Of a stretch of 37,273 nucleotides of DNA, positions 5,253 through 29,264 are shown piece by piece. The translations under genes and the position numbers were made by a program. How positions within the stretch are numbered: position 1 is the stretch's first letter; each line of letters opens with the position of its first letter. Source of the stretch: a virus. The notes under the pieces are model-generated. The model was not told the origin of the DNA, did no database searches, and was given only the letters and a program-made list of their open reading frames with translations. The stretch spans positions 1-37,273 of IMG/VR virus record IMGVR_UViG_3300021961_000267; one strand, 5' to 3'.

Positions 5253-5254
5253 AT

Positions 5255-8347: not shown

Positions 8348-8505
8348 AGTGCCTCTTTTTTGTTCTTTTCATTCCACCACTTAAACATGAAAACAGGAAT
8401 GCCTGAGATATGCTCAGCCTTCTCGAACTTCTCCTCGATATTAAGGTCGGGAAAAAGCAGATTAACTTCTTTTAAAGCATACTCGATTTCGTTACTAAGC
8501 TGCAT
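8344..8505 (-). CDS. Small hypothetical protein
   Basis: The frame is open further upstream, but the ATG at 8505 is the best start because it gives a small overlap (11 bases) with the preceding gene and has a GAAGAA purine stretch upstream; the product is then 53 residues, beginning MQLSNEIEYALKEVNLLFP. It ends in a lysine-rich KWWNEKNKKEAL and its stop overlaps the carbamoyltransferase start (ATGA). No domain is recognised. Confidence 0.6.
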   Translation of the reverse strand: MQLSNEIEYALKEVNLLFPDLNIEEKFEKAEHISGIPVFMFKWWNEKNKKEAL

Positions 8506-8728
8506 CTGCCTGTTCTTCCCCACCTGGCTGAGGATCACGTTGACCAGTCTTTGTTGCAATAAGAGTAACCAAAAGAGGGTCACGTTCTTTCTTTAGCCAA
8601 ACATTGAGGTAGTTCATTTCCATTTCGTCGAGTTCAATATTATCGACGTGAAAACGAATCATAGTATCAAGCATTGCTGCCAATTTAAACATCTTTGCAT
8701 CTACATGCGTCATATCACTATCTGCCAT
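8495..8728 (-). CDS. Small acidic hypothetical protein, first gene of its operon
   Basis: A 77-residue acidic protein with helical periodicity (MFKLAAMLDTMIRFHVDNIELDEMEMNYLNVWLKK is covered by residues 13-47) and a loose tail ending in GEEQADAA. The ATG at 8728 is preceded by a good AGGAGTG ribosome site. A promoter-like pair lies 33-61 bases upstream, so this gene probably leads the carbamoyltransferase/radical SAM transcript. Function unknown. Confidence 0.6.
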   Translation of the reverse strand: MADSDMTHVDAKMFKLAAMLDTMIRFHVDNIELDEMEMNYLNVWLKKERDPLLVTLIATKTGQRDPQPGGEEQADAA

Positions 8729-8760
8729 TTTTCACTCCTTTATAACTAAGCAGTAATGTA

Positions 8761-8789
8761 AACATAATGTGTACATGTTATTTAGTCAA
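8761..8789 (-). promoter_or_regulatory. Sigma70-like promoter; also a CTAAATA late-type motif
   Basis: On the minus strand TTGACT (8789-8784) is separated by 17 bases from TATGTT (8766-8761), upstream of the gene starting at 8728. The same stretch contains CTAAATA (8785-8779), a motif reported for late promoters of some marine T4-like phages. Either reading puts a promoter in this 63-base gap, the only spacer of note between 8344 and 12503. Confidence 0.4.
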
Positions 8790-8791
8790 CA

Positions 8792-9415
8792 CTAATTTGA
8801 ACCAAAATCAATTAAATTATTTTCACTAAATCCCCACTGTCTCTCTTGACACTGCCAACACTCATTACATCTACCAGATGTCTTCTCGGTACAAGAGTGG
8901 GAATAATTTACAATGTAATCCAGTTTCAACTCACTAACCATTCTTACTGTATCTTTTTTAGTTAACCGTCCGAATGGTCTTTTATATTTTTGATCTCTTT
9001 TTTCTGCTATTTCCGAGCCAGATCTATCTGGCGATCTAGTAGTCCAAACACCATTGTATCTCGACTCAATTACTATAGGAGGGTTTGTTGTATTTCCACT
9101 ATACAACACATCAACTTTATCTATGTAATGTTCTTTGATCCATTTGTATGCTTCTCTACCAGAAACACCTAAATTAGTAATTTCATCATATTCATCTTTA
9201 TACGGAATCATAACCGACTCATATGTATTACTGTTAAAATTATTATTTGAAATTATACGCTTAACATTATCAACACTTCCATCTGGTTTATCCATCGTAA
9301 ACAAAATAAAATGACTATTATCATTTGCATTGCATAATAGGTGAAGCAACAATGCACTATCAAATCCACCTGACAATAGAAGCCCAATCGTTTTGTGTTT
9401 TTCAAATTCTATCAT
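8792..9415 (-). CDS. QueC-like PP-loop ATPase (copy 1, intact motif)
   Basis: A 207-residue member of the N-type ATP pyrophosphatase family, closest in layout to QueC (7-cyano-7-deazaguanine synthase). The PP-loop S15-GGFD-S20 is intact. The C-terminal zinc site C175-x7-C183-x2-C186-x2-C189 has the QueC spacing, followed by ERQWGF. QueC turns a carboxylate into an amide and nitrile using ATP and ammonia. The central part is not close to typical QueC, and no queD, queE or folE lies in this window, so the true substrate may differ. A paralogue with 45-50 percent-looking similarity by eye lies two genes upstream. The start ATG has a perfect GGAGG site. Confidence 0.75.
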   Translation of the reverse strand: MIEFEKHKTIGLLLSGGFDSALLLHLLCNANDNSHFILFTMDKPDGSVDNVKRIISNNNFNSNTYESVMIPYKDEYDEITNLGVSGREAYKWIKEHYIDKVDVLYSGNTTNPPIVIESRYNGVWTTRSPDRSGSEIAEKRDQKYKRPFGRLTKKDTVRMVSELKLDYIVNYSHSCTEKTSGRCNECWQCQERQWGFSENNLIDFGSN

Positions 9416-9424
9416 AGAAACCTC

Positions 9425-10357
9425 CTATGTTACAGTAATAGACAGATCAGGTTTTGTTCGTGCATCACCGTCAAAATTCCATTTTACGTTATAAACAATT
9501 TTTCCATTGTCTCTAACTACATTTTGTACTCTTTTAAAATCATCCCTGAAAAAAGTTCTATAAGGATATCCGTCTACTACTCCTCCATCATATCGTCTAA
9601 AAACTCCTCTGCCCCAATCAATGTGAAGATGTCTAAATCCATCCCAGAATCCTATATTAGATTTTGGAATATTTCTTTCGCTTACTTCAGGAAAATAATG
9701 ATCATATAATGCTTTTTTTCCTCCAGATCTTTCCCAGCTATCATTATCAGGAACTAAAGGTAAAGATTTTTCAATAAAATCATCTACAAAAAAAGCAGCC
9801 TCTATAAGAGGATTAGCCTGGAAAAAATTTATACATTCAGATCTGTACATATATGAAATTAAAATATTTGCACATGATTGATCGAATAGGAGTTTGCTAC
9901 CATGCGTTTTAATTGGAACTGTTTGACCAGCTCTAATGCACACATCATTAACCGGATCTACATCTGGGTAATGAGATTGGATAGCAAAAAAAGCAGAATA
10001 TGGTAATTTGTCAGTAACAAATTTATAATCATCAGATTTTTCATATTCTTCCATATCGACATCGTACATCACTACATCATCTTCAAAAATATTATTGCTT
10101 TCGTAATGATTTACTAACTTGCCTTTAAAAAAGTATCTAATGTGCACTCTTTTAACTGGGATGTTCATATGTCTGAATACCCAACTTATTATTTGACTAT
10201 CGGCTCCTCCGCTGTGAAGAAAAATAAGATTTTTATTAGTCGAGTCTCTAATTTGTTGCGCAGTGTAAAAACATGCCTCTCTAAGAGACCATTGTTTATA
10301 TTTTCCATTAATTGTAAGAGAAGCTCCTATGTGATCATATGTACAATCGAAGTTCAT
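9425..10357 (-). CDS. PP-loop ATPase, asparagine-synthase-like
   Basis: A 310-residue protein with one PP-loop (LHSGGADSQ, S49 to S54) after an N-terminal stretch that ends in WSLREACFYTAQQI. This adenylating motif is shared by asparagine synthetase, QueC, TilS and related enzymes that activate a carboxyl or carbonyl. It lacks the glutamine amidotransferase domain of asparagine synthetases and the zinc cysteines of QueC. It lies between two QueC-like genes, two bases after one and nine before the other, so the three probably act in one pathway. The specific reaction is unknown. Confidence 0.7.
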   Translation of the reverse strand: MNFDCTYDHIGASLTINGKYKQWSLREACFYTAQQIRDSTNKNLIFLHSGGADSQIISWVFRHMNIPVKRVHIRYFFKGKLVNHYESNNIFEDDVVMYDVDMEEYEKSDDYKFVTDKLPYSAFFAIQSHYPDVDPVNDVCIRAGQTVPIKTHGSKLLFDQSCANILISYMYRSECINFFQANPLIEAAFFVDDFIEKSLPLVPDNDSWERSGGKKALYDHYFPEVSERNIPKSNIGFWDGFRHLHIDWGRGVFRRYDGGVVDGYPYRTFFRDDFKRVQNVVRDNGKIVYNVKWNFDGDARTKPDLSITVT

Positions 10358-10359
10358 AG

Positions 10360-11037
10360 CTAATTAACACCCGTGTCAGTTAAATTGTTTTCGCTAAATG
10401 CCCATTCCCTTTCTTTACATTGCCAGCACTGATTACATCTACCAAAGTGTATCTGTGTGCAAGTATGGGAATAATTTACAATGTAATCAAGCAGTACATT
10501 GTTACGACCAACATAATCCACTAGAGACCCACTAATCGAATCAATTATATCTTTTTTAGTTGACTGTATAAAAGGCATTGTAAATTTAAACACATTTTTT
10601 TCAACTGTTTCTGAGCCAGATCTATCTGGAGCAGCAAAATGTGTCTGTAATGCAATAGGAGGGTTTTTTGTATTGCCACTATACAATACATCGACTTTAT
10701 CTAAGAAATTATCTGTTACCCACTGATATGATTTTTTGAAGGCTTCCAAATTAGCTTTAAATTTATCAGCAAGATTAATTATAGGCTGTCCGTTAATAAT
10801 AGGAGGTGTGTATTCGTTTTTAAAAGGTACAATGATTGATTCATAAGTATTGTTGTTGAAATTGGTATGAGATATTATTTTCTTCATATGTGGAATACAC
10901 CCATCACGTGTATCCAACGTAAGCAATATAAAATGACTTTGGTCATTTATTTCACATAATTGATGAAGTAGGAAAGCACTAACAATCCCACCCGACAACA
11001 AAAGTCCAATGGTCTTATGTCTTGCAAGTTCTACCAT
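10360..11037 (-). CDS. QueC-like PP-loop protein (copy 2, altered motif)
   Basis: A 225-residue paralogue of the protein at 8792-9415: the same KHKTIGLLLSGG-type start (here RHKTIGLLLSGG), the same LDYIVNYSH block, and the same zinc site C193-x7-C201-x2-C204-x2-C207. The PP-loop reads SGGIVS instead of SGGxDS: codon 19 is GTT (Val) where copy 1 has GAT (Asp), a single-base difference. That Asp is nearly invariant in ATP pyrophosphatases, so this copy may be inactive or regulatory, unless it is a sequencing error. It starts on the stop codon of the radical SAM gene (TAATG). About 20 residues longer than copy 1 in the middle. Confidence 0.72.
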   Translation of the reverse strand: MVELARHKTIGLLLSGGIVSAFLLHQLCEINDQSHFILLTLDTRDGCIPHMKKIISHTNFNNNTYESIIVPFKNEYTPPIINGQPIINLADKFKANLEAFKKSYQWVTDNFLDKVDVLYSGNTKNPPIALQTHFAAPDRSGSETVEKNVFKFTMPFIQSTKKDIIDSISGSLVDYVGRNNVLLDYIVNYSHTCTQIHFGRCNQCWQCKEREWAFSENNLTDTGVN

Positions 11038-12503
11038 TACAAATTAATCATCCTATTATAATATAGATCTTTTAATCTATATAGACGATCGATACTATCC
11101 TCTAAACTCCATGTTCCATTATCAAAATCTTCTAATTTATAACCTAAATTTTGCATTCTATTAAAGAAAGTAAATTGAAATCTTGTTCTTTTCTTTTTTA
11201 ACAACACATTGTACCAATGTTCTTTAACTATCTCTTCAGCTCTATATTCATTTAACCATTTGCTGTGCCACTTTCCATGTTCATCAAACCAATAACCATA
11301 CTTTTCTAAATCCATACCCATAGATGAATTTTTACTAAGTCTCAGAGGTGTGGGAGAAAAACTATCTAAAGGACAATCGTCTCTTGATAGCCAATCCAAT
11401 GTCTGCTGTATTGTGTCCTCAGTATCATAGGGTAACCCTATTATAAATCCAGATGTAGTAATTATATCTTTCCATCCAGGTACCTGTTTTAGTTGATACA
11501 AACCATCCTTTAGCTTTTCGGGATCCATTCCTTTACCAATTGTTTTTCCAGACTGATGGTTTAGTGTTTCTATACCAAAGAAAACACTTCTCATGCCACT
11601 TTCATAAAGTAAAGGAGCCGTATGCATCTTAGAAATAAGTATATCAGCTCGAGCATAGGTGCTAAAAGTAAGATCAAAAGGTAGTTTTGTAAATTCTTTA
11701 TGTAATGCTTGTACCTTTTCCACACTATCATTATACGTGTCATCTGCAAACATGAATCCTTCAGATCCATACAAGAAGTTTGCCTCTTTAAGATCATTTC
11801 CAATTACTTCAGGAGCTCTATTAAATTCCCACAGTTTTTTATTAAGTATTGGATAATTACAAAAAGCACATTTGAAGATACATCCTCTTGCTATTTCCAT
11901 AGGAAGATGTTCACCTTCGAAGATAAGATCGTTATTAGTAAATCTTATTCTACTGTTTGTAAAATTATTTACTTGATAATCCCTTTCTCTTACGATCTTC
12001 ACATTACCTGATTGTTCGTATTTTAAAGGTTCGCCATATTTTAAATTTTTATATAAATGAGATATTGACACATCACTCTGATTTATAAAAACATAATCTA
12101 CAAATTTATTCCAAGGATCAGCAAGAGCGTTTCCTGCTTTATGACCGCCTATAACAATTTTTGAATTTGAAACTGATTTAATCGTTTCAAAAATATCTAA
12201 AATATCTTCTCTTCCAAAAGTATCTTCCCAGCCAGAATTAGAAAGAAGGGATTGCTTTTCCAGTCTACTCTTTTTCAGAGCATTACTAATAAGAAAGGTA
12301 CAAGAAAAACCAACAAACAACGTTTTGCTGTTGATAAACTTATCAATTATAGCAGAGATTTCTGTTTTGTCCCACTTGGTGAAAAATTCTACTATCTGAA
12401 CATCAGCTCCTAACTGTCTTAATTCAGTAGCAACTCTATATGTTCCAGCGTATCTTCCAAATCCCCCATGTGACACATCTGTAAAAATTACTATTTCTGC
12501 CAA
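11037..12503 (-). CDS. Radical SAM enzyme with N-terminal B12-binding-like domain
   Basis: A 488-residue protein. Residues 1-150 look like a Rossmann-type cobalamin-binding domain (VATELRQLGADVQIVEF, then IVIGGHKAGN) but lack the DxHxxG cobalamin ligand motif. The radical SAM core starts at C208-IFK-C212-AF-C215, with FADDTYNDS and FFGIETLN as later strand motifs of B12-dependent radical SAM methylases. It begins with TTG at 12503, behind an AAAGG site. The stop overlaps the next gene (TAATG). It is the upstream gene of the three PP-loop genes; together they suggest a modification pathway. The substrate is unknown. Confidence 0.8.
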   Translation of the reverse strand: MAEIVIFTDVSHGGFGRYAGTYRVATELRQLGADVQIVEFFTKWDKTEISAIIDKFINSKTLFVGFSCTFLISNALKKSRLEKQSLLSNSGWEDTFGREDILDIFETIKSVSNSKIVIGGHKAGNALADPWNKFVDYVFINQSDVSISHLYKNLKYGEPLKYEQSGNVKIVRERDYQVNNFTNSRIRFTNNDLIFEGEHLPMEIARGCIFKCAFCNYPILNKKLWEFNRAPEVIGNDLKEANFLYGSEGFMFADDTYNDSVEKVQALHKEFTKLPFDLTFSTYARADILISKMHTAPLLYESGMRSVFFGIETLNHQSGKTIGKGMDPEKLKDGLYQLKQVPGWKDIITTSGFIIGLPYDTEDTIQQTLDWLSRDDCPLDSFSPTPLRLSKNSSMGMDLEKYGYWFDEHGKWHSKWLNEYRAEEIVKEHWYNVLLKKKRTRFQFTFFNRMQNLGYKLEDFDNGTWSLEDSIDRLYRLKDLYYNRMINL

Positions 12504-12525
12504 ATACCTTTACCTTATAAAAAAA

Positions 12526-12601
12526 TGGCGTCCCCTGCACGATTCGAACGTGCGACCCACAGCTTAGAAGGCTGTTGCTCTATCCACTGAGCTAAGGAGA
12601 C
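12526..12601 (-). tRNA. tRNA-Arg (anticodon TCT)
   Basis: A 76-base cloverleaf on the minus strand: acceptor stem GTCTCCT/AGGGGAC (one G-T pair), anticodon loop CTTCTAA with TCT, T-loop TTCGAAT, and an encoded CCA end. It reads AGA, a favoured arginine codon in A+T-rich genes. It lies between the radical SAM gene and the phosphoribosyltransferase gene on the same strand. Confidence 0.95.
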
Positions 12602-12635
12602 GAATAACATTAATCTTCTACCTTGATATATGTCG

Positions 12636-13100
12636 TCATTCTTGTGGCTCCCAAGGAAAAATAACCCATTCATCAGTTGTTAAATGGTTAACATTGTAGT
12701 CAGCCTTGAATTTTGATGAGTGTCGGTCGAACAAACATGCAAATCTAACGTGTTTTTCGACCTCTTCGAGGCTAAAATATATCCAATCCTCCCAAATCGA
12801 CTGAAAAGTCTTGCCAGAATCGTTAATATCATCGACAATTAGGATATTTTTGCCTTGTTTACCTATAAAATCATCAATTAAATCGTATCTATGATGATTT
12901 TCAGCGCCATCACGAGTCTGCCAAACCATCATATCACATGGAATACCGCTCATATGTGACAAATATACCGCTGGAACAGCACCTCCACGGACAATACCAA
13001 GAATTAAATCTGGATACCATTCGTCTTTTAGGTTAAGAAGGTCCCAGTATAGCATGTTTGTGTCGCGCAAAAATTGTTCATTTGTGTAAATTTTGGCCAT
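12636..13100 (-). CDS. Type I phosphoribosyltransferase (Gpt-like)
   Basis: A 154-residue phosphoribosyltransferase. The PRPP-binding loop ILIVDDINDSGKTF is textbook for type I enzymes, and DLILGIVRGGAVPAVYLSH is the first PRPP contact loop. Size and the WVIFPWE ending resemble xanthine-guanine phosphoribosyltransferase (Gpt), which also ends in FPWE. It would salvage a purine base with PRPP to a nucleotide. The active-site hood is not clear enough to name the base. It starts at ATG 13100, overlapping the HEXXH gene by 23 bases, and the tRNA-Arg lies just downstream. Confidence 0.82.
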   Translation of the reverse strand: MAKIYTNEQFLRDTNMLYWDLLNLKDEWYPDLILGIVRGGAVPAVYLSHMSGIPCDMMVWQTRDGAENHHRYDLIDDFIGKQGKNILIVDDINDSGKTFQSIWEDWIYFSLEEVEKHVRFACLFDRHSSKFKADYNVNHLTTDEWVIFPWEPQE

Positions 13101-13560
13101 TTTCTTTGTATTCCTTCAATAACAGTTCTTGCAACTCATATGCCTCATCTTCATGAGGTGCATCATCATAGTCTACATCTGTAACATCAACACCTTTAAA
13201 TGTTTTTGTGTATTTTCCTCTCGGGTATCTATCTTTCAATTCTTCAGTAGCAAACTGTTTGACATGAACCATCTCATGAAAAATAGTGAGCTCTAGCTCA
13301 TCTTCCCAATCATAGTGGTTAGAAGGCTCAAACACTCGATTACTTATTTCTATAGAGAAAGTTCTAGGACGAACATACTCGTCTTCCCATGTAGCAAACC
13401 CACCAGCATTACCATCTAATTGGTCATTGAATTCTACTAATATTTCACAGTTGTTCGCTAGACGCTTGTTCATCAGCCTGTAAGCTGCCCACTGAATTGC
13501 TTTATGTACTCTCTGCTCCATTTGTGGATTCGGAGCGTTCTCTATCTCGATGTAAGTCAT
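13078..13560 (-). CDS. HEXXH zinc metallopeptidase-like protein (SprT-like)
   Basis: A 160-residue protein with the zinc-binding motif H95-EMV-H99 in TIFHEMVHVKQF; a third ligand is probably a Glu or His further on. The single-domain size and 'HEMVH.KQ' form resemble phage SprT-like or minigluzincin proteins. I chose the ATG at 13560 because GAGGAG lies 8 bases upstream; the frame itself is open to 13602. The start lies inside the end of the YkgJ-like gene (59 base overlap). A processing peptidase for a phage or host protein is plausible; the target is not known. Confidence 0.68.
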   Translation of the reverse strand: MTYIEIENAPNPQMEQRVHKAIQWAAYRLMNKRLANNCEILVEFNDQLDGNAGGFATWEDEYVRPRTFSIEISNRVFEPSNHYDWEDELELTIFHEMVHVKQFATEELKDRYPRGKYTKTFKGVDVTDVDYDDAPHEDEAYELQELLLKEYKENGQNLHK

Positions 13561-13951
13561 CGTCGTTCTCCTCAGCGTATAAGGGGACCTTACCTTCACC
13601 AAACTTTTTTGTCAACAGAGAAAATACAAAATTAAAATATTCTGGCATTAATTTTTTAGAGTTTGACCACTCAAAACAATTGTACCTTGAACAAATTGAA
13701 GGTCTATTTTTATAGATTCTACATTTAAGATCTGGCATTAAGTTTGAACACCAATTAACAACTTTAAGAGACTTACGTTCAGGATTGGATTCAACAAAAG
13801 ATCTCGGAGACAATTCAAACATTGCCTCTAAATAATCCTTTTGCTCTGGACTATAACTATGATGCCAAGTAGTTTTACAACATCTTCCGCACTGAGTGCA
13901 TATATCACCAGTAATTAATTTAGGATCTAGATCCTTCCAATCATCGCTCAC
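13502..13951 (-). CDS. YkgJ-like zinc or iron-sulfur cysteine-cluster protein
   Basis: A 149-residue protein with the YkgJ/UPF0153 cysteine pattern: ICTQCGRCCKTTW near residue 18, WCSNL..LKCRIY near 70, and RPSICSRYNCFEW near 85. The family is proposed to bind zinc or a metal cluster via eight cysteines; seven to eight are seen here. Function is not established; members are often found with methyltransferases or oxidases. The C-terminal tail (DDDLHRDRERSESTNG) is charged and probably disordered. It ends 59 bases inside the next gene, an unusually long overlap. Confidence 0.72.
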   Translation of the reverse strand: MSDDWKDLDPKLITGDICTQCGRCCKTTWHHSYSPEQKDYLEAMFELSPRSFVESNPERKSLKVVNWCSNLMPDLKCRIYKNRPSICSRYNCFEWSNSKKLMPEYFNFVFSLLTKKFGEGKVPLYAEENDDDLHRDRERSESTNGAEST

Positions 13952-14186
13952 GTTTTTCCCTTATCTTTGTCATGGGTTCATACCATTCTATAATAAGACC
14001 GATTGCATCAATACAATCACTAACATAAATGTTGTCTGCTTGTTTATCTTCAAATCTAACCCTAGCAGCTGGGTCGTTATAATCTCGTTCTAAGAAATGT
14101 TTGAATGTCAGGAGCTCCTCTCTTACAACCTTGTCAATCTGATGTGATTCTAACTCTATAATTGACACTACAATCTCCTTGATCAA
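13941..14186 (-). CDS. Small hypothetical protein
   Basis: An 81-residue helical protein (EIVVSIIELESHQIDKVVREELLTFKHFLERDY occupies residues 4-36). The start ATG at 14186 overlaps the stop of the dehydrogenase gene (ATGA), and the end overlaps the YkgJ-like gene by 11 bases. Its first helix could form a coiled coil. No domain is recognised. Confidence 0.65.
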   Translation of the reverse strand: MIKEIVVSIIELESHQIDKVVREELLTFKHFLERDYNDPAARVRFEDKQADNIYVSDCIDAIGLIIEWYEPMTKIREKRER

Positions 14187-14968
14187 ATATCTTCGTACCT
14201 GTAATTTATACTATTGAACGAAACTGCTTCCTCTAACAATGAAAGATCAGACCGATTGTCACTTGCAAAAGAAAGTAGAGCTCTCGTATCTTTAGGAAAA
14301 CATGCTCCACCGAAACCTCTTTTTCCATCAGTTCCAGGAACCTTAGTATGAGAAGGTCCTATTCTTTTATCAGTAGCTACAACATCTCTAATATAATCAT
14401 AATCCATTCCACTAGAATCACATAGATCTCTCAATTGATTAAACCATGTAACCTTAGTAGCAAGAAAACTATTAATCGTATACTTAACCATACTTGCTTC
14501 TCTAATAGACATATAATAAGTAGTGCATGGTTGAACATTGCTATTGTTTATGTAAGCATTAGAAACCCACTTACACTTATCGTACTCACCACCAAAAACA
14601 TGAAATTGAGGATTTACAAAGTCGTAGTTAGCGTTATCTTGTGTCAAAAACTCAGGATTATAAACAAACTTTCTCGAATAGCATACATCGTAAGCTACAT
14701 CAGGGGTCATTGTAGATTTAACGACAGTAATTCCGCTATTAATATCTGCCAATTCATCTGCAACGGTATCTACAATTGATCTATCAACTCTACCATTTAA
14801 TGTAGGAGTAGGAACACATACAAATGTCAGTTCCGGTTTAAAATTTTTGACATCACTAACTTTTGTATCCAACTTAGGATCTATAAGCTGAAGTTCATTA
14901 TCCCCATGGGTGAACCCATGTGCAACTGCACTTCCAACGAACCCGCATCCTACAATAGAGATCCTCAT
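14183..14968 (-). CDS. UDP-sugar 6-dehydrogenase-like, lacking the C-terminal domain
   Basis: A 261-residue member of the UDP-glucose/GDP-mannose dehydrogenase family, which oxidises a sugar nucleotide to a uronate with NAD. Residues 7-12 are GCGFVG (Rossmann NAD site), YNPEFL and the catalytic-cysteine motif GFGGACFPKD are in place. Normal members have 390-450 residues; this one stops just after the central helical dimer domain and lacks the UDP-binding C-terminal domain. Short phage forms of this type are known to me, so it may not be a broken gene, but activity on UDP-sugar is uncertain. It would supply a uronate for the glycosyltransferase in the same block. Confidence 0.78.
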   Translation of the reverse strand: MRISIVGCGFVGSAVAHGFTHGDNELQLIDPKLDTKVSDVKNFKPELTFVCVPTPTLNGRVDRSIVDTVADELADINSGITVVKSTMTPDVAYDVCYSRKFVYNPEFLTQDNANYDFVNPQFHVFGGEYDKCKWVSNAYINNSNVQPCTTYYMSIREASMVKYTINSFLATKVTWFNQLRDLCDSSGMDYDYIRDVVATDKRIGPSHTKVPGTDGKRGFGGACFPKDTRALLSFASDNRSDLSLLEEAVSFNSINYRYEDI

Positions 14969-20010: not shown

Positions 20011-20184
20011 CTAAAGTCTTGTATATGTGTATTCTGAATCTTGATATTTGCCTTCTGCAATCTTCTGACTGAAGCTGCTCAACAGATATCCGCTCAAACT
20101 ACCATCATCCTCAACTTCATACCCCTTCCCATTAGAGAGAGACTCCATATACCACACACCCCCTACTTCAATCTCTTCACTCAT
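20011..20184 (-). CDS. 57-residue hypothetical protein
   Basis: A gene just under the usual cutoff: ATG 20184 overlaps the preceding stop (ATGA) and has GGAG upstream; TAG at 20011. It begins MSEEIEVGGVWYMESLSNGKG and ends QKIAEGKYQDSEYTYTRL. It has a short predicted beta-hairpin and an acidic centre (EVEDDGSLSG). No similarity is recognised; ATGA coupling and the ribosome site support that it is real. Confidence 0.62.
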   Translation of the reverse strand: MSEEIEVGGVWYMESLSNGKGYEVEDDGSLSGYLLSSFSQKIAEGKYQDSEYTYTRL

Positions 20185-20435
20185 ATCACCATCTCCTTAT
20201 GTATAGCCTCAATCTCATCCTCATCCTCATAATACCAGTCATGCTCTTCAGCAGGATCTGTTTCTTCATCAAACCGAATGTCCCAATTGTTAGAGATCCA
20301 CTCGACATTATCCTTCAGCTCGTCAGTACTCATACCCATAATAATCTCATCCAGCAGTCTCTCTTTACCCAACTGCTCCTCTATCACATCCATTTGAGCC
20401 ATCAGTTTGGTTCTCATGTCACTTAATACACTCAT
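20181..20435 (-). CDS. Small acidic hypothetical protein
   Basis: An 84-residue protein: N-terminal helix MSVLSDMRTKLMAQMDVIEEQLG (coiled-coil-like) and a strongly acidic C-terminal part with EETDPAEEHDWYYEDEDEIE. Start overlaps the preceding stop (TAATG) and the end overlaps the next start (ATGA). Like its neighbours it shows depletion of C on the coding strand. Function unknown. Confidence 0.63.
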   Translation of the reverse strand: MSVLSDMRTKLMAQMDVIEEQLGKERLLDEIIMGMSTDELKDNVEWISNNWDIRFDEETDPAEEHDWYYEDEDEIEAIHKEMVI

Positions 20436-20578
20436 TACTGTAACTCCTCTTTTAGTTCCTGCACCTTCTCAAGTGCCATATTAAAAGCATCCTCACAACT
20501 CATTCCTTCATCAAGAAATTCAACTTGTAAGTCCTGAAACTTGTTTTCTAACCACTCTTCAAAAAACATGTTACTCAT
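20435..20578 (-). CDS. 47-residue hypothetical protein
   Basis: ATG 20578 with GGTAGAGAG upstream; the TAA stop shares a base with the next ATG (TAATG). The product starts MSNMFFEEWLENKFQDLQVEF and ends MALEKVQELKEELQ, two acidic helices joined by LDEGMSCED. It was too short for a 60-residue cutoff. Probably a small helical regulator; no homologue recognised. Confidence 0.6.
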   Translation of the reverse strand: MSNMFFEEWLENKFQDLQVEFLDEGMSCEDAFNMALEKVQELKEELQ

Positions 20579-20592
20579 CTCTCTACCTCCTA

Positions 20593-20775
20593 TCAGTTAT
20601 CAAACACATTAGCCATTTCTAAAATATTTACAACACCACTCATACCACTCATACTCCTACCCTCTAGCTCATCAACAAAAGCCTCTAACATCTCAACAGC
20701 TTCATCCTCCTCAAGACCATATCTCTCCATAATCATCTCTACATCTACCTTCATCTTTATATTAAAAACTTTCAT
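20593..20775 (-). CDS. Small acidic hypothetical protein
   Basis: A 60-residue protein, MKVFNIKMKVDVEMIMERYG at the start, then LEEDEAVEMLEAFVDELEG and a Met/Ser-rich end. ATG 20775 has AAAGGAGATGAGAG upstream. It is rich in Met, Glu, Asp and Val, the amino acids whose codons can avoid C, in a region where the coding strand has almost none. Function unknown. Confidence 0.62.
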   Translation of the reverse strand: MKVFNIKMKVDVEMIMERYGLEEDEAVEMLEAFVDELEGRSMSGMSGVVNILEMANVFDN

Positions 20776-20858
20776 CTCTCATCTCCTTTTCTTTCCATAA
20801 CTTCATAATACACATTTCTAACAAACAAACAACAGTTTTTTTCAAAAAAACTTTTTTT

Positions 20859-21185
20859 TTATCTCCTCTCAACCCACAAATAATTCATCTCATAATCCTC
20901 ATTCACAATCACACTATAAACACCCTTATACTCTAAATCAAAACCCACACCCACAAACTCATCATCATCACTCAACCCATAATCATCAATCACCTCATAT
21001 TCACTACTAAACACCTCATCCTCTAACCCTAACCACTCAATATCATCCACCTCACCTCTACACCCTAAAGTAATTTTCCACAAACCATCTTTATCAATAT
21101 CCTCCTTCCATTCATCACCCACAATCTCCAACACATCTCTTACACTAAACACCTCATCAAAATTCTCTCTATTCAACTTTCTCAT
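20859..21185 (-). CDS. Acidic hypothetical protein, coding strand almost free of C
   Basis: A 108-residue protein, the first gene of the leftward early block. It is very acidic with two internally similar stretches (GDEWKEDIDKDGLWKITLGC and EYEVIDDYGLSDDDEFVGVGF) suggesting a beta-rich fold. The coding strand contains almost no C (the + strand has about one G in the 300 bases 20881-21180), so Ser, Leu, Thr and Pro are rare or use C-free codons. The ATG has AAGGAAAAGAGAG upstream. The bias is a property of the region, strongest here. Frame, ribosome site and absence of stops support a real gene. Confidence 0.65.
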   Translation of the reverse strand: MRKLNRENFDEVFSVRDVLEIVGDEWKEDIDKDGLWKITLGCRGEVDDIEWLGLEDEVFSSEYEVIDDYGLSDDDEFVGVGFDLEYKGVYSVIVNEDYEMNYLWVERR

Positions 21186-21445
21186 TTCTCTCTTTTCCTT
21201 CTCTCATTTAAATTTTCATTTAAACTACCTTACCACAAGTAAATACCCTATACAACAACTTTTTTAACTTTTTTTAAAAAAATATTCTCCTTTTTTTTAA
21301 CACACACACTCCCCCAGCTCAAACATCTCACACCTCTTATCTACAGTCAACATATAAAATAAAAAAAACTTTTTTTGTGTTTGGGTGTTGTGTTTGAATG
21401 TGGATGGTGAGATATTGAAGATTGTGTTTGTGAGAAGAGGAGGAG
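21186..21445. other. A/T-tract, skew-inversion region (origin candidate)
   Basis: No credible gene lies in 21186-21713. The left part contains long homopolymer tracts, including a T-run next to an A-run at 21274-21287 (14-base palindrome), eight T at 21291-21298 and A-run/C/T-run around 21361-21377. Strand composition inverts at about 21350: 20761-21360 has 5 G on the + strand, whereas 21361-21460 has 1 C and 34 G. Gene direction diverges here too. Easily melted tracts at a skew switch are the signature of a replication origin or a divergent transcription centre. It is separate from the repeat array at 21446-21565. Confidence 0.55.
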
Positions 21446-21565
21446 TTAATTAGGAGAGAGATAGTAACATAAGATACTATTTCACACGAAACTATATCGC
21501 TCGATACTATTAGGCTCGAGATAGTAACATATGTTACTATTAGGCTCGAAACTATTAAGATCGAA
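21446..21565. repeat. Array A: eight tandem 15-bp units with two ATAGTA-N8-TACTAT dyads
   Basis: Units of exactly 15 bases follow one another; from 21476 they read ACTATTTCACACGAA, ACTATATCGCTCGAT, ACTATTAGGCTCGAG, ATAGTAACATATGTT, ACTATTAGGCTCGAA, ACTATTAAGATCGAA. Upstream are ATAGTAACATAAGAT and a degenerate unit. Two dyads of the form ATAGTA-N8-TACTAT lie at 21461-21480 and 21521-21540; the second is a perfect 20-base palindrome. The layout suits cooperative binding by a dimeric DNA-binding protein (operator or iteron). Confidence 0.8.
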
Positions 21566-21713: not shown

Positions 21714-21938
21714 ATGCATCATTCACAAAACGCACAGCTAGCACTAGCAGAGATAGACGCTGCTATCAAAACCGGTGCTCTGTCTGCACACGAGATACTA
21801 AATGAGTTGACCGGTGCTCTAGATCCATGGACGTTGACTACGTCTTGGAAATTTGTTAAGATGTCCACTAGGCTTGACTCCCCGACCAAGAAAGGGGAGA
21901 ACAGAAAGAGAATCAATAGGGGAACAAAAGGGGAATAG
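21714..21938 (+). CDS. Small hypothetical protein, first rightward early gene
   Basis: A 74-residue protein: an alanine-rich helix MHHSQNAQLALAEIDAAIKTG, a GALSAHEILNELTGALDPWTL segment, and a basic tail SPTKKGENRKRINRGTKGE. ATG 21714 has TGGAG nine bases upstream and the stop is directly followed by the next gene's ribosome site. It lies next to the control region, so a DNA-binding regulator acting on the nearby dyads would fit its size and basic tail, but no helix-turn-helix is certain. Confidence 0.6.
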   Translation: MHHSQNAQLALAEIDAAIKTGALSAHEILNELTGALDPWTLTTSWKFVKMSTRLDSPTKKGENRKRINRGTKGE

Positions 21939-21939
21939 A

Positions 21940-22227
21940 ATGGAGAACGTTGGGGGAATAGATATGGGAACGGGAACGATCCGCAAGCCCATCATCAATA
22001 AGGTCACCGACTGGTGCTACAATATACTATTTGAGTTCGATGGGAGACTGCAGAACAACCAAAAGGGAGAAGCAGTAGTAGAACTGTCCACGGAGACAGC
22101 ATCGATATTCGTACATGTAGAGCGCAATGGTACTAAGATGCGCAGAAAGATGAAGCCATGCCTGCAGCGCGACCTAATCGCAGCAGCTTGCGTGGATGCA
22201 GTAAAGCAGCCTGATCTATTCCAGTAG
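21940..22227 (+). CDS. Small hypothetical protein
   Basis: A 95-residue protein from ATG 21940, two bases after the preceding stop and with AAAGGGG upstream; the frame is open further left (to 21853) but those starts lie in the previous gene. Features: MENVGGIDMGTGTIRKPIIN at the start, DWCYNILFEFDGRLQ, then strands EAVVELSTETASIFVHVERNG and a basic KMRRKMKPCLQRDLI helix. A strand-strand-helix arrangement with a basic surface may bind DNA or RNA. A strong hairpin follows the stop. Not recognised. Confidence 0.62.
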   Translation: MENVGGIDMGTGTIRKPIINKVTDWCYNILFEFDGRLQNNQKGEAVVELSTETASIFVHVERNGTKMRRKMKPCLQRDLIAAACVDAVKQPDLFQ

Positions 22228-22237
22228 ATCGGTGCTC

Positions 22238-22282
22238 TCCTGGGGCGGGAGTCTCTCTCCTCTCTCTCCTCCCGCTCCAGGA
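22238..22282 (+). terminator. Strong hairpin, possible terminator or attenuator
   Basis: TCCTGGGGCGGGAG (22238-22251) pairs with CTCCCGCTCCAGGA (22269-22282): 14 pairs with a single G-T, around a pyrimidine-rich 17-base loop. It begins 10 bases after the stop at 22227. Only a TCTTCTCT stretch, not a proper T-run, follows, so it may be an RNA-stability element rather than a terminator. Confidence 0.5.
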
Positions 22283-22368: not shown

Positions 22369-22428
22369 TTAATTAGCTCCGAAATAGTATCGATAGTTAC
22401 TATTTACGGACTAACTATCTCTCTCCTA
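22369..22428. repeat. Array B: four 15-bp units with an ATAGTA-N8-TACTAT dyad
   Basis: Units TTAATTAGCTCCGAA, ATAGTATCGATAGTT, ACTATTTACGGACTA and ACTATCTCTCTCCTA follow in 15-base register from 22369. The dyad lies at 22384-22403. The family, spacing and register are those of array A 850 bases away. A gene starts at 22502. Between 22228 and 22501 no other gene is seen; the repeated ATAGGAGAACA stretches at 22437 and 22486 are ribosome-site-like. Confidence 0.78.
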
Positions 22429-22501
22429 CATACTCAATAGGAGAACATTACAGCAAATCAAACGTGTTCCGTAGGGGGAACGTATAGGAGAACAATATAA
22501 T

Positions 22502-22744
22502 ATGGGCGATTTAGCGTATGTTGATATCAGAGAAAGGATGTATAATGGTATTAGGGCTAGGATTAACGATTGTTTTGTCAGTGGTAGCGATGATGATCTC
22601 GTAAAGTTGTACATTCGTTATGGTGATGATTTAATTAACTACTTACTATGGGATATTGATGATCGTGTTGCTACAATCTGCAATATTAGAGTATGTGATA
22701 GCGAAATTGTTAATGTTGATAATATATCTAGTGATGATTGGTGA
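22502..22744 (+). CDS. Small acidic hypothetical protein
   Basis: An 80-residue acidic protein (MGDLAYVDIRERMYNGIRARI, then FVSGSDDDLVKLYIRYGDDLIN, ending in DNISSDDW). ATG 22502 follows AGGAGAACAATATAAT. It is the first gene behind array B, so probably controlled by whatever binds there. Similar acidic short proteins follow. No domain is recognised. Confidence 0.62.
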   Translation: MGDLAYVDIRERMYNGIRARINDCFVSGSDDDLVKLYIRYGDDLINYLLWDIDDRVATICNIRVCDSEIVNVDNISSDDW

Positions 22745-22760
22745 GAGGATGTTTGTTTAA

Positions 22761-22997
22761 ATGCTATTGACAGAGTATATGATTGGGGAGATGTATAGTA
22801 ATCTGTGTTATGAGTATACGGACTACTTCGTTAATATGACGTTATTGTACTTTCGTGTTTCCGATCTTAGTGATTTGAATGAAGATCAGATTAACGAGTT
22901 GATATTGTATAGTGATGAGATAAGCGATATGTACCCTTTCTTTGGTCAATGTGTAAGAGACGTCGTCCATATATGGGAAGGATATCATGATAGATGA
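22761..22997 (+). CDS. Small acidic hypothetical protein
   Basis: A 78-residue acidic protein rich in Tyr, Leu and Asp: YMIGEMYSNLCYEYTDYFVNM, then LSDLNEDQINELILYSDEISD and VRDVVHIWEGYHDR. The only purine-rich site, GAGAGGA, lies 12 bases before ATG 22761; the in-frame ATG at residue 7 is an alternative start. It may be an inhibitor or regulator; there is no recognised similarity. Helical throughout. Confidence 0.58.
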   Translation: MLLTEYMIGEMYSNLCYEYTDYFVNMTLLYFRVSDLSDLNEDQINELILYSDEISDMYPFFGQCVRDVVHIWEGYHDR

Positions 22998-23024
22998 TTG
23001 TGTTATACGAAGGGATTATAGTAT

Positions 23025-23324
23025 ATGGGTCCTCCTCTTATAAGTGAATTGATGGAAACTGTTGAATATCAGAGACGTATTCGTATTAAGTTGTCTATAG
23101 CTGCATATGGATATGAGTTTGATAGTAAGAGTATTATGTCTGACTCGGAGTATGATATGTTGAGTCGTGATGTTGATTCGAGTATATTGACTGGTCGGGA
23201 TGAGTTAGATCGTTTCTTTAAGGAAGAATTTGTACCTGATAGTGGTATGTGGATCCATAAACATCCCGAATTAGATAAGGTCAAGGCTCTGTATAACAAG
23301 TATAAGAGGTATCATAAGTTATGA
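23025..23324 (+). CDS. Protein like the Ia domain of NAD-dependent DNA ligase
   Basis: A 99-residue protein. Its centre, KLSIAAYGYEFDSKSIMSDSEYD, resembles the helical Ia domain of NAD-dependent DNA ligases (H/Y-NYxYYVxDxPxxSDxEYD), ending in HPELDKV like ligase HPEL. In ligase this domain binds nicotinamide mononucleotide. Small stand-alone phage proteins with this pattern are known to me without function. The next gene, an H protein, overlaps the stop by 4 bases (ATGA), so the two are translated together. No ligase core lies nearby, so it is not a ligase by itself. Confidence 0.55.
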   Translation: MGPPLISELMETVEYQRRIRIKLSIAAYGYEFDSKSIMSDSEYDMLSRDVDSSILTGRDELDRFFKEEFVPDSGMWIHKHPELDKVKALYNKYKRYHKL

Positions 23325-23701
23325 CTTTAATGTATTATACTAAGGAACATGAATGGGTACGTGCAGGGGAAGACGATGACGTAAACGTCGTCACTGTCGG
23401 AATTACTCGTTATGCTGCAGATCAACTAGGAGATGTAGTGTTCGTAGATGTCCCTGATATCGGCGCACATGGAAGTAAAGATACGGACTGCGCTGTCGTA
23501 GAGAGCGTCAAAGCTGCATCGGACGTATATTGGGCTCTTACGGGCGAGATCGTCGAAGTCAATCAAGATGTCGTCGATGATCCGTCAATCGTAAACGAAG
23601 ATCCCGAGGGTCGTGGATGGTTCTATAAGATGAAATGTACTGACTTGGCGGAATTAAATCAATTAATGAACGAAGAGCAATATAACGAATTTATTAGTTG
23701 A
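23321..23701 (+). CDS. gcvH: Glycine cleavage system H protein
   Basis: A full-length 126-residue H protein (E. coli GcvH has 129). Landmarks follow in order: YTKEHEWV at the start, VGITRYAADQLGDVVFVDVP, the lipoylation motif AVVESVKAASDVY with K64, and GWFYKMKCTD, ending in EEQYNEFI. H protein is the lipoylated shuttle of the glycine cleavage system, moving the aminomethyl group between P, T and L proteins; the other subunits are not in the window, so it must borrow them from the host. An in-frame ATG at 23330 is a second start. Codon choice differs from neighbours (more GTC, GAC and CGT codons), consistent with recent acquisition. Confidence 0.93.
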   Translation: MTLMYYTKEHEWVRAGEDDDVNVVTVGITRYAADQLGDVVFVDVPDIGAHGSKDTDCAVVESVKAASDVYWALTGEIVEVNQDVVDDPSIVNEDPEGRGWFYKMKCTDLAELNQLMNEEQYNEFIS

Positions 23702-25030: not shown

Positions 25031-25845
25031 TGTACAAAGCTATCAATCGTAAACCAGGCAGACCCTCTTCGAAGGGTAATACTCTACCAATGTATTCAGT
25101 CGACATACCTCGTGCAGAGCGTCGACAGCTCATTAGAGAGCGATACAAGGTACTGAATATTATGCTAGACAGTGTCAAGAATGGCACTTGTAGGTCTATG
25201 ATTGTCTACGGACCTCCAGGGTTAGGCAAGTCTTACTCCGTGTTTGACAAGCTGAAGGACCAAGAGATCACTACGGTCAAAGGTCACTGTACCCCTGGAG
25301 GTCTCGTTAAGACTCTATTCAAACATCGTGATGGTGGTGTTATCGTATTTGATGACACAGATAGTGTTCTTATGGATCCTAAGTCTCTTGCTCTCCTCAA
25401 GGCAGCTACAGACTCATCAAAGACTCGTGTAGTGTCATATAAATCTACTAGGACTATCGAAGCTGATGATGAGCTAGGCAAAGTTGAGTCATCATTCGAG
25501 TTCAAAGGGACAATCATATTCATAACTAACATGGACTTCAATAATGCTCCTAAAGCTATTTCTCCTCATACACAAGCTATTATTTCTCGTTCTACTTACG
25601 TTGATCTTGGGCTCCGCACTCGCGATGATTATATCGATCTTATAGAGCACGTAGTATCAACAACTGGTATCCTCGATGCATTAGACAAAGATGATCAAGA
25701 TGTGATCATGAACTACATCAAGGACAATAAGGAGAAGTGGATTGAACTGTCTCTCCGTACTGTAGTCCAACTTGCGGATCTATATACATCAGTAGACGAC
25801 TGGAAACTAGTCGCTAAACATACAAAAATGAGGTCCGTGATATGA
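25030..25845 (+). CDS. AAA+ ATPase
   Basis: A 271-residue AAA+ ATPase. Walker A is GPPGLGKS at 61-68, Walker B is GVIVFDDTD near 100-108, sensor I is TIIFITNMDF near 165, and the arginine-finger region follows with THTQAIISRS-like residues. The fold lies nearest to the clamp-loader/RuvB/DnaC type. A basic N-terminal extension (KAINRKPGRPSSKGN) may contact DNA. Such proteins occur in T4-like marine phages as ATPases of unknown role, perhaps helicase loading or remodelling. It is not the T4 clamp loader (gp44), which has a collar domain. Start TAATG-coupled; ends four bases into the SDR gene. Confidence 0.8.
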   Translation: MYKAINRKPGRPSSKGNTLPMYSVDIPRAERRQLIRERYKVLNIMLDSVKNGTCRSMIVYGPPGLGKSYSVFDKLKDQEITTVKGHCTPGGLVKTLFKHRDGGVIVFDDTDSVLMDPKSLALLKAATDSSKTRVVSYKSTRTIEADDELGKVESSFEFKGTIIFITNMDFNNAPKAISPHTQAIISRSTYVDLGLRTRDDYIDLIEHVVSTTGILDALDKDDQDVIMNYIKDNKEKWIELSLRTVVQLADLYTSVDDWKLVAKHTKMRSVI

Positions 25846-26597
25846 TTCATCTCCTAGTTACTGGTCATGAAGGTTACATTGGTAGTAACTTCATCAACTA
25901 CGTAGAAACAAATGCATTACCAATACAAACATATCGTTACGAGGGAGATATCATGGACTTTGATCTCCCTTGCGATGGATTCCTTGAACCATTCTACGGA
26001 CAGAGAGAGACTTGTATGGTCCTCCATCTAGCAGCTCTTGCTGGAGTCCGTAAATCATTGGAACAACCAGATCTGTACTGGCGTAACAATGTACTAGGTA
26101 CACGTCGTGTGTTTGCTAAGTGCCAACAGCATAATGTTAAGCTGCTGTTTGCATCATCGTCTAATGCTCATGATGTTACTAATCCATATGCAGAGACTAA
26201 GAAACAAAACGAGCTCGATCGTATTAGTGATTGTGTAGGGTTCAGACCTCATACTGTATATCCAGGTCGACCTGATATGCTATTCCAACGCCTTAGAAAC
26301 AAGGAAGTGACATATATCAATACAGGTCACACGAGAGACTTTACTCATATCTTCGACATATGCTCAGCACTATGGACTATCATGAAGAACTATCCTGCAC
26401 TTAAAGGCGAGGTAGTCGATATTGGTACAGGTGAAGCTGTACCTGTAACAGATGTAGCTCTAGGTATGGGGTTCACAGGTGAGATGGTAAATGATCCTAC
26501 ACCTAATGAAAGAACTCATACAGCTGCAGATATCTCTAGGTTGAAATCATTCGGTTGGGAACCTAAATATAAGATACTGGACGTCATTGATTGGTAG
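25842..26597 (+). CDS. NAD-dependent epimerase/dehydratase (extended SDR)
   Basis: A 251-residue extended short-chain dehydrogenase. The NAD motif is TGHEGYIGS at 7-15 (TGxxGxxG), the middle holds HLAALAGVRKS and WRNNVLGT, the catalytic YxxxK is YAETK near 130, with the Ser/Thr of SSSNAH just before. Later parts (GHTRDFTHIFD) match the substrate domain of UDP-glucose 4-epimerase-type enzymes, though it is short (usual 300-340). It would change a sugar nucleotide in the glycan pathway, with the dehydrogenase and glycosyltransferase of the leftward block. ATGA-coupled to the ATPase. Confidence 0.8.
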   Translation: MIHLLVTGHEGYIGSNFINYVETNALPIQTYRYEGDIMDFDLPCDGFLEPFYGQRETCMVLHLAALAGVRKSLEQPDLYWRNNVLGTRRVFAKCQQHNVKLLFASSSNAHDVTNPYAETKKQNELDRISDCVGFRPHTVYPGRPDMLFQRLRNKEVTYINTGHTRDFTHIFDICSALWTIMKNYPALKGEVVDIGTGEAVPVTDVALGMGFTGEMVNDPTPNERTHTAADISRLKSFGWEPKYKILDVIDW

Positions 26598-26607
26598 AGG
26601 ATAACTA

Positions 26608-27378
26608 ATGACAGAGAAATTAGGAAAGAAACTTAATGAGTTCACTCAAGAGCTAGAAATACCCTTAGATACTGATGAATTATCTAAATTGGTTCCTTGG
26701 CTTCATGAAACTCTTCCTAATCTTGCCAACCCTTACCAACATTATCAAATGCCAGACGGTCAAGGAGGTACTAAAGGAGGTTACGAGGGTTGGTCTCTAA
26801 CTAGTAGAGATGGATCGTATACAGATGGATGGCCTGGAAATGGCCCTAGAAATTTATCTTACGAACAAGACGTAGAAGATATGAGTAGAAGAGTCCGTGA
26901 CCTCAAAGTAAGAACTCCAGCTTGTAATCCATATGTTCATAAAATTATAGATCAATTAGAAATTTTAGGATTTAAACCTAGTAAAGGTAGAGTTGGTGTA
27001 CTAAGGCCAGGTAAGAATATCAGGATTCATAGTGATGCTGGTGCGCAGATTGATCATTTATATGTTGCTAGAGTACATATTCCTCTAATTACTAATCCAG
27101 ATGCATGGTTTGCTACATACAATCCTCCTAAAGAGTATATTAGAACTGACCTAGGAAGATTCTGCTATGAGCCTGGTGAATTTGATTCTGAGTTAAGAAG
27201 GAAATATGAATCAAGAATCCATATGGAGTTCGGTAAAGCATACTTTACAATGGTTAATTGCCTACACACAGCTTATAATGAGGGTACAACAGATAGATAT
27301 CATATGATGTTTGTTGTATGGGATACTAAAAATTTAACTCACTTCCCATTTAACAATCAGTATAGAATAGATGATTAA
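26608..27378 (+). CDS. Aspartyl/asparaginyl beta-hydroxylase-like 2OG-Fe(II) protein (copy 2)
   Basis: A 256-residue dioxygenase, a paralogue of the lone rightward gene at 15445-16122. Shared layout: YEGWSLTSRDGSYTDGW, then NPYVHKIIDQLEILGFKPSKGRVGVLRPGKNI, and the ligands HSD (in IRIHSDAG) and His (CLHTAYNEG) with the 2OG-binding Arg of TTDRYH. It hydroxylates an unknown Asp/Asn or other substrate. It is followed at TAATG by the B12-type radical SAM protein, so the two probably act in one pathway. ATG 26608 follows AGAGGATAAC. Confidence 0.78.
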   Translation: MTEKLGKKLNEFTQELEIPLDTDELSKLVPWLHETLPNLANPYQHYQMPDGQGGTKGGYEGWSLTSRDGSYTDGWPGNGPRNLSYEQDVEDMSRRVRDLKVRTPACNPYVHKIIDQLEILGFKPSKGRVGVLRPGKNIRIHSDAGAQIDHLYVARVHIPLITNPDAWFATYNPPKEYIRTDLGRFCYEPGEFDSELRRKYESRIHMEFGKAYFTMVNCLHTAYNEGTTDRYHMMFVVWDTKNLTHFPFNNQYRIDD

Positions 27379-29264
27379 TGAGACTGACAATCAGTTGTCC
27401 GCCAATTTCGGACGTTTTTGCGTATTACACATATATTGAATGCATTGTTCGTACTGCATTAAAGGATCACGAAGTACAATACAATGATCCTATATTTTAT
27501 AGATTCAACTACAACAACATAACTCAGTTTGAGGATACTCTGAATAACACAGATATCCTCATGCTATCATGTTACGTATGGAACTGGGAGCTACAACTAG
27601 CTCTTACTGATTATGCACGACAAGTCAATCCATCTATTAAAATAGTAGCAGGAGGACCTCAAGTTCATGAACCATACTATCATCTTTTCGATCATGTAGT
27701 CAAAGGTGAAGCTGAAGGTGCTGTTGTACAAATAGTTGAAGGTACAGCTCCTCACATTGTTACATCTATTAGAAAGACAGACTTCGAAGTATCTCCTTAT
27801 GTAGAGAACAAAGAGTTTTTATTATCACAAAAGAACGAAGCTGCTAAGAGAGGTATGACTTTAGGAGTAATCTTCGAAGCTAATAGAGGATGTCCATTCG
27901 CTTGTGCGTTTTGTGACTGGGGAAGTGCTACTCAATCTAAAGTACATTATTTTGATATGGATAGAGTTTTTAATGAAATAGATTTTATCACAGATACATT
28001 AGAACCTTCATTCTGGTTTCATGCTGATGCTAATTTTGGAATTACAGATAGAGATCTTGATATCTCTGATCATCTTGTCAAAGCAAAACAGAGATCAGGA
28101 TATCCAAAAGCATTCTTCTATAGTGTATCCAAGAACACATGGCAGAGAAATATACAGATAGCAGAGAAGTTGTGGGATGGTAAATTAATAGACTCATACA
28201 ATGTAGGAGTTCAACATACTGATCCAGAGGTTCTTAAAGTTAATAAAAGAGGTAACATCAAATCGACCTACAATAAAATAGTCGGACAAAGACTAAAAGA
28301 AAAGAACATACCAGTTAACACTCAAATGATATTAGGCATGCCTGGTGATACACCAGACAAGTGGTTTGATTCACTCTGTGAAACATTTGAATGGGGATTC
28401 CACAGTGAGCTAAAAGTGTACTGGTATAATCTACTTCCTAATGCTCCAGCATCTGAACCATCGTACAAACAATTATGGCAAATAAAGACTAAAAAAGTAA
28501 TATACGATCAGTCCAGACTACTTACAGATCCCAATGAATTAATTGATAGAGTTTCTGATATTATTGTATCTACCTCTACGTTTTCAGAAGATGATTGGGT
28601 GACGATGAACGTAGAAACTAGATGGCTCCAAGCATTACATAACTTTGCTTTGGTACGTCAAATTGCTATGTATAAGCGATTTATAGAGGGTGTACCTTAT
28701 AACGTCTTCTATAGAGGATTGATTGACTACATTTCTGAATCTTTAGGTAAACACTTCAATGATCAATATTCGAATTATCTAAGAGAATTGTTAGATCATG
28801 GAGATGGTAAAACTCATGTACGATTTATCTTTGACGATAAGATGGTCAGAGTTGAGCCAGAAGATGTGTTGTTTCTATATCTCCTTAACAACAAGGAAGA
28901 ATTCTATAGATTAGTAAACCAGTTCGTTGGAGATGACGATCTAGTAGAATATCAAAAGAACATTATGCTCGATCTTGATTATAATCCTACACAAGGAAGA
29001 ACTATTAAATTAAATTATGATTACATTAAATTGTTTAAAGATATTGAGAAGGCTTCGTATGTATCTAAACTTAACATACCAATTGAGTACCACACAAATC
29101 AAGATGTGATTGAAGGTTCTACTGAGTTCACTAAAAGTAGAATCATATGGCATAAAGCTAATAATAATGAGAGAAAACTTAATCTTTTTGTTAAATCTGT
29201 ATTAGGTATGATTGACTTTAGAGGAGAGCGTACTCAGTTAAAACATTGGACTAATGTTTCGTAA
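27378..29264 (+). CDS. Radical SAM enzyme with B12-binding-like domain
   Basis: A 628-residue protein. The N-terminal 150 residues look like a Rossmann/cobalamin-binding domain (LMLSCYVWNWELQLALTDYA, IVAGGPQVHE), but no DxHxxG His ligand is visible. The radical SAM cluster is C172-PFA-C176-AF-C179, with FWFHADANFGI and YNVGVQHTDPEVLK as later strand motifs. The long C-terminal extension (residues 350-628) is unusual and not recognised. The substrate may be a peptide or sugar; it follows the 2OG oxygenase at TAATG. The last 31 bases overlap, tail to tail, the opposing gene. Confidence 0.82.
   Translation: MRLTISCPPISDVFAYYTYIECIVRTALKDHEVQYNDPIFYRFNYNNITQFEDTLNNTDILMLSCYVWNWELQLALTDYARQVNPSIKIVAGGPQVHEPYYHLFDHVVKGEAEGAVVQIVEGTAPHIVTSIRKTDFEVSPYVENKEFLLSQKNEAAKRGMTLGVIFEANRGCPFACAFCDWGSATQSKVHYFDMDRVFNEIDFITDTLEPSFWFHADANFGITDRDLDISDHLVKAKQRSGYPKAFFYSVSKNTWQRNIQIAEKLWDGKLIDSYNVGVQHTDPEVLKVNKRGNIKSTYNKIVGQRLKEKNIPVNTQMILGMPGDTPDKWFDSLCETFEWGFHSELKVYWYNLLPNAPASEPSYKQLWQIKTKKVIYDQSRLLTDPNELIDRVSDIIVSTSTFSEDDWVTMNVETRWLQALHNFALVRQIAMYKRFIEGVPYNVFYRGLIDYISESLGKHFNDQYSNYLRELLDHGDGKTHVRFIFDDKMVRVEPEDVLFLYLLNNKEEFYRLVNQFVGDDDLVEYQKNIMLDLDYNPTQGRTIKLNYDYIKLFKDIEKASYVSKLNIPIEYHTNQDVIEGSTEFTKSRIIWHKANNNERKLNLFVKSVLGMIDFRGERTQLKHWTNVS

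Follow-up and report, generated by a model that had tools for sequence, protein, structure and literature searches.

One locus in the window, which is the full length (37,273 bases) of a linear virus contig from IMG/VR, raises the question of why one DNA strand should be nearly free of C over about 630 bases and why this composition should flip where the genes diverge. The questions addressed here are what removed the C and whether the locus works in the expression of early genes or in the initiation of replication.

Phage and genome context

The right end of the window is overlapped by two sister contigs, identical to it at 100% according to the aligner, with small letter differences. Joining of the window with one sister contig gave 65.9 kb of DNA, and the genome is still incomplete. 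A DNA search of the central 5 kb of the window against phage records revealed no similar DNA. The DNA polymerase encoded in the extension showed 63-67% identity to IMG/VR contigs and had several hundred further relatives, many of them T4-like, and gp41-, UvsX- and primase-like ORFs were recognized there by eye from their translations. The extension also carries TATAAATA late-promoter-like sites, mostly on the coding strand, and the window encodes a ribonucleotide reductase, PhoH, an exonuclease, a RuvC-like resolvase, Thy1, tRNAs and sugar-modification genes. Judged from these T4-type replication genes, the TATAAATA late promoters and the gene content of the window, the phage with this contig is a T4-like (marine) phage.

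An Rfam search of the window returned tRNAs only. A glycine cleavage H protein (GcvH; 23321-23701, plus strand; PF01597, E 4.8e-42) is most similar, with about 52-58% identity, to proteins of Alphaproteobacteria, and no relatives were found in viral contigs; this affinity is a weak hint of an alphaproteobacterial host. Many radical-SAM, B12-radical-SAM, carbamoyltransferase, QueC-like, glycosyltransferase and nucleotide-sugar genes are located at 3724-14968 (minus strand) and 25842-29264 (plus strand) and represent a large surface- or DNA-modification set.

Extent and rarity of the C-free zone

The strand flip is sharp and is located at about 21341-21369. As the preliminary description had it, the 600 plus-strand bases 20761-21360 hold only 5 G (A205 C191 G5 T199), and 21361-21460 holds 1 C against 34 G (A29 C1 G34 T36); both counts are exact. 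The minimum lies slightly further left and is deeper than first described, since the lowest-G 600 nt of the plus strand begin at 20716 and contain 3 G. Within 20716-21345 the only plus-strand G are those at 20835, 21070, 21239 and 21317, and the 200 nt from 20836 have none.

On the minus strand, which is the RNA-like strand of the leftward genes, this corresponds to a C-free core at 20716-21360 with 5 C in 645 nt (G 32%, T 34%, A 34%, C 1%) and a G+C content near the genome value. All five remaining C precede T, four of the five stand in ACT and three in CTG, although these are small numbers. With distance from the flip, minus-strand C rises from 0-1% between 21.3 and 20.7 kb to 4-13% as far as 20.2 kb, and to about 15% farther on. 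The fading zone at 20100-20715 (minus strand) averages 7.8% C, and C returns to 15-18% beyond it. The non-coding stretches 21186-21360 and 20776-20858 are as C-poor as the core around them, with 2% and 1% C. The right arm is short (21361-21450, plus strand; 1 C in 90 nt) and is the G+T-richest 90 nt of the plus strand; it is followed by palindromic repeats and then by ordinary sequence. The second rightward gene group again has a C-poor start (22430-23330, plus strand; 10% C). A near-C-free strand of about 630 bases looks selected rather than accidental.

Comparison with other sequences showed how unusual this is. G-free runs of 148 nt matched 108 times, overlaps included, and not once in 100 dinucleotide shuffles. 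The absolute GC skew over 600 nt reaches 0.97 at the locus and at most 0.48 elsewhere, whether in the roughly 65.9 kb assembled for this phage, in T4 and HTVC008M or in a dozen related contigs; in T4 it is at most 0.38. C-free 100-mers occurred in two of 18 phage records, namely this window and one gene of P-SSM2. In the latter (NC_006883), a 107-nt C-free run lies at 41275-41381 within gene PSSM2_038. One of the 47 contigs carrying a related DNA polymerase had C-free 90-mers, in an AT-rich stretch, and C-free 144-mers were present in 4 of 190 genomes from the class of a Pelagibacteraceae MAG, nearly all of them AT-only or simple repeats. A search of viral contigs for an A/T tract joined to a long G-free run gave 0 matches.

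The pattern could be an assembly or sequencing artefact, as the 21 kb locus is present in one contig only, the sister contigs spanning 28-37 kb and beyond. However, ORFs with codon-position periodicity and start signals traverse the locus and the composition of the neighbouring DNA shifts gradually, and we regard such an artefact as very improbable.

Genes in the zone and cause of the C loss

The core includes an ORF for a very acidic protein of 108 aa (20859-21185, minus strand; 32 D/E, 11 K/R) with a single C in 327 nt. The protein has no Pro, His, Gln or Ala and one Thr, and the codon-position pattern of the ORF supports coding. No relatives were found in viral contigs or phage records, solved structures gave one insignificant match only, and the AlphaFold model, with a pLDDT of 48, was not usable. 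The zone also contains an ORF of 60 aa (20593-20775, minus strand; 3% C), with weak PHROG and Pfam matches only, and an ORF of 84 aa (20181-20435, minus strand; 10% C), in which third-position G is raised. For a 95-aa protein no relatives were detected in viral contigs. About 2.6 Mb of retrieved loci were also searched by local tblastn with the neighbouring genes. The small ones that surround the C-free zone had no relatives there; because none can be detected, the locus is not comparable across phages.

The preliminary description had allowed that the skew might come from the amino-acid choice of the flanking genes only. This was calculated for the 108-aa gene, and amino-acid choice as the sole cause was rejected: the gene has 1 C, whereas about 26 are expected for its own protein in genome codon usage and the lowest count among 2000 simulations of the recoded protein was 15. 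For an average protein of this length 52 C are expected, so that about half of the loss lies in the amino acids and the rest is synonymous.

The mechanism first put forward for the skew, C-to-T change on an exposed strand, does not agree with the four-fold sites of the same gene (T.39, G.57, A.04, C.00; n=23). Most other genes have roughly T.45, G.10, A.35 and C.09 at such sites; G thus replaces both C and A while T is not raised, and simple C-to-T change was rejected on these sites. A broader form of this idea is strand-specific mutation, in which C (and A) would be deaminated on a strand frequently left single-stranded by transcription or replication. The restriction to one strand and the gradient can be counted for it, and the T and G of the four-fold sites would fit C-to-T combined with A-to-G change. 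Yet T does not rise at these sites, the G+C content is unchanged, and the effect ends within about 1 kb, unlike replication skew. The non-coding stretches of the zone moreover retain A at 38-41%, so that a general A-to-G process does not fit. Strand-specific mutation is accordingly considered quite improbable.

Near-total rather than partial loss suggests a cost for each C, and this is best explained by a C-specific activity that attacks every C on an exposed strand or in early RNA and so would have freed the promoter-proximal strand of C. T4 endonuclease IV (DenB), a dC-specific single-strand endonuclease, is an example of such an activity. The limitation of the loss to one strand and its weakening away from the promoter were also counted for it, as was the context of C in the fading zone (TCA 2 against 5.3 expected, GCT 10 against 4.1), although these counts are small. 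On the other hand, the model has no enzyme behind it, since neither a DenB homologue nor another C-specific activity was noticed in the incomplete genome outside a dedicated search, and C-specific attack alone does not explain the rise of G at synonymous sites. It seems unlikely that such an attack makes every C costly and that the phage for this reason writes the beginning of an early transcription unit, with one whole protein gene in it, in an A/G/T alphabet; C-specific attack in general is likewise judged improbable. As for modified G or modified C in the DNA as the cause, two weak partial QueC-like matches were obtained and no established base-modification pathway.

Promoter-like sequences and repeats at the flip

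At the flip the genes diverge and the DNA has A/T tracts, with palindromic repeats close by, in agreement with the preliminary description. An A8-C-T7 tract is situated directly at the flip (21361-21376) and may be a shared UP-like or AT element of divergent promoters; the 65.9 kb contain only two tracts of the A5+CT5+ type, both at this locus. To its left lies a putative leftward promoter, TTGACT-N17-GATGTT (21322-21350, minus strand), and to its right a putative rightward one, TTGTGT-N17-GATATT (21388-21416, plus strand), both read from the sequence, with TGA before a weak -10. A consensus scan at the flip found no strong sigma-70 promoter and reported neither of the two. Should both be correct, some of the C-free DNA would be promoter and not message, which would favour a cause at the DNA level. 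An alternative -10, TATAAAAT at 21353, would place the rightward start at the flip itself.

Three 20-bp palindromes of the form ATAGTAAC-N4-GTTACTAT lie unevenly spaced within 1 kb: ATAGTAACATAAGATACTAT at 21461-21480, the perfect palindrome ATAGTAACATATGTTACTAT at 21521-21540 and ATAGTATCGATAGTTACTAT at 22384-22403. No further copies with up to 5 mismatches were found in the 65.9 kb. The palindromes flank two ORFs (21714-21938 and 21940-22227) and look like operator or initiator sites. A strong hairpin is predicted at 22238-22282 (plus strand), with a 14-bp stem, a 17-nt C-rich loop, -27.9 kcal/mol, a z of -5.7 and no U-run after it. It is possibly a terminator or a small RNA, and base pairing of its pyrimidine loop with GGAGAGAG-type sequence, for instance that at 21452-21459, is conceivable.

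Possible replication origin

These features could also belong to a T4-type replication initiation site resembling oriE or oriF. A leftward transcript would form an R-loop in the A/T-rich zone and prime leading-strand synthesis, and the displaced minus strand, C-free, unstructured and G/T-rich, would load helicase and primase. The preliminary description knew of no such skew at T4 origins, which has to be corrected: oriE, oriF and oriG are found close to points of divergent transcription and to shifts in composition, and oriE has iterons (PMC3016281). At oriF and oriG a promoter is needed as well as an A+T-rich unwinding element, and the R-loop at oriF leaves the non-template strand exposed (PMC3016281). 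Like these three origins, the locus combines divergent transcription, a local compositional shift and A/T-rich, unwinding-type DNA, with repeats as at oriE (PMC3016281). The locus has spaced palindromes, whereas the repeats of oriE are regular 12-nt direct repeats.

The divergence, the three palindromes and the A/T tracts are thus what the origin reading expects, together with a promoter that is itself putative. The highest 200-nt G density of the minus strand (0.41) and its highest G+T content are found in the core, and the highest 90-nt G+T content of the plus strand at the flip. GTT and GCT are the T4 primase sites, and plus-strand positions 20835-21317 form the longest stretch free of both on either strand of the 65.9 kb (482 nt, the next being 263 nt). 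If the plus strand were the lagging template, this stretch would offer few T4-type primase sites. However, GTT is not enriched beyond composition, and the RNA:DNA hybrid energy, calculated with nearest-neighbour parameters, is unexceptional, the 600-nt windows that cover the core having rank fractions of 0.15-0.34. QmRLFS-like rules gave no R-loop initiation motif at the flip, and the annotated oriE (79355) and oriF (115321) of T4 are not at its sharpest flips.

A global extreme of cumulative skew at 21.35 kb, which the preliminary description expected of an origin, is not supported within the 65.9 kb of the incomplete genome: there is only a local minimum, near -1160 at 21-22.5 kb, against -2571 at the far end of the contig. 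Elsewhere the sign of the skew tracks gene direction. Strong skew is confined to about 1.2 kb left and 0.1 kb right of the flip, without the long-range, direction-independent skew of a leading-strand origin. An origin of the T4 type is considered less likely than not, though a close rival of the transcription reading set out below.

Proposed role in early transcription

The zone, with its extent, single strand and gradient, its independence from amino-acid choice and G as the synonymous replacement, is read here, tentatively, as the promoter-proximal zone of a divergent early (host-takeover) cluster, from which nucleotide-level selection purged C and favoured G on the RNA-like strand, with avoidance of Rho as the likeliest mechanism. 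We infer a leftward transcription start near 21315, from a promoter in which the A/T tract acts as UP element, and an early timing for the genes; the small genes without relatives around the locus were counted for an early cluster. The first 1.2 kb or so of the leftward message would be kept unstructured and without C-rich, G-poor Rho-loading sequence, as would the first 0.9 kb or so of the second rightward gene group. Host polymerase would in this way escape termination before the takeover proteins are made.

A rut sequence is C-rich and G-poor, and its opposite is therefore exactly C-poor and G-rich. As a proxy for rut, 78-nt windows with C>=G were counted, a measure adapted from the C>G-bubble descriptor for rut sites (PMC9160355). 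Such windows make up 0% of 20100-21360 (minus strand) and of 22430-23330 (plus strand), compared with 21-36% elsewhere. In T4, Rho added in vitro limits transcription to immediate-early RNA (PMC2988021). The RNA of the zone has a folding energy of about -0.10 kcal/mol per nt, where 124 control windows have -0.208 +/- 0.043, and is among the least structured tested. Against the Rho reading, avoidance of Rho should not need near-total removal of C. To our knowledge all phages meet Rho, and no other phage examined has comparable C loss. Also counted against it is that NusG can assist Rho on C-less RNA (PMC7819879). A crude scan of average composition downstream of T4 promoter-like sites showed no C depletion.

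The sharpest skew flip of T4 (NC_000866), at 41660, is in the same kind of place as the locus, just upstream of the early small-gene cluster 55.6-55.2 with its C-poor first gene; its skew is -0.39 over 400 nt, against -0.96 at the locus, and it is a single T4 example. Antitermination by lambda N and in T4 delayed early transcription attains the end that the locus would serve, namely early transcription past host Rho. Those systems use proteins or structured RNA sites, while at this locus composition alone is proposed to do it.

Transcription and origin models fit the data about equally, with selection in early transcription slightly more likely. Under either reading the locus is compact and lends itself to direct tests. 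A protein gene and leader nearly without C, where genome-like coding would give about 50, are a very strong sign of nucleotide selection at the level of the strand. If the locus is an origin, it bears on a question that the T4 review leaves open, namely what governs R-loop formation at origins (PMC3016281). If it serves transcription, composition alone may shield the early messages of this phage from termination by the host.
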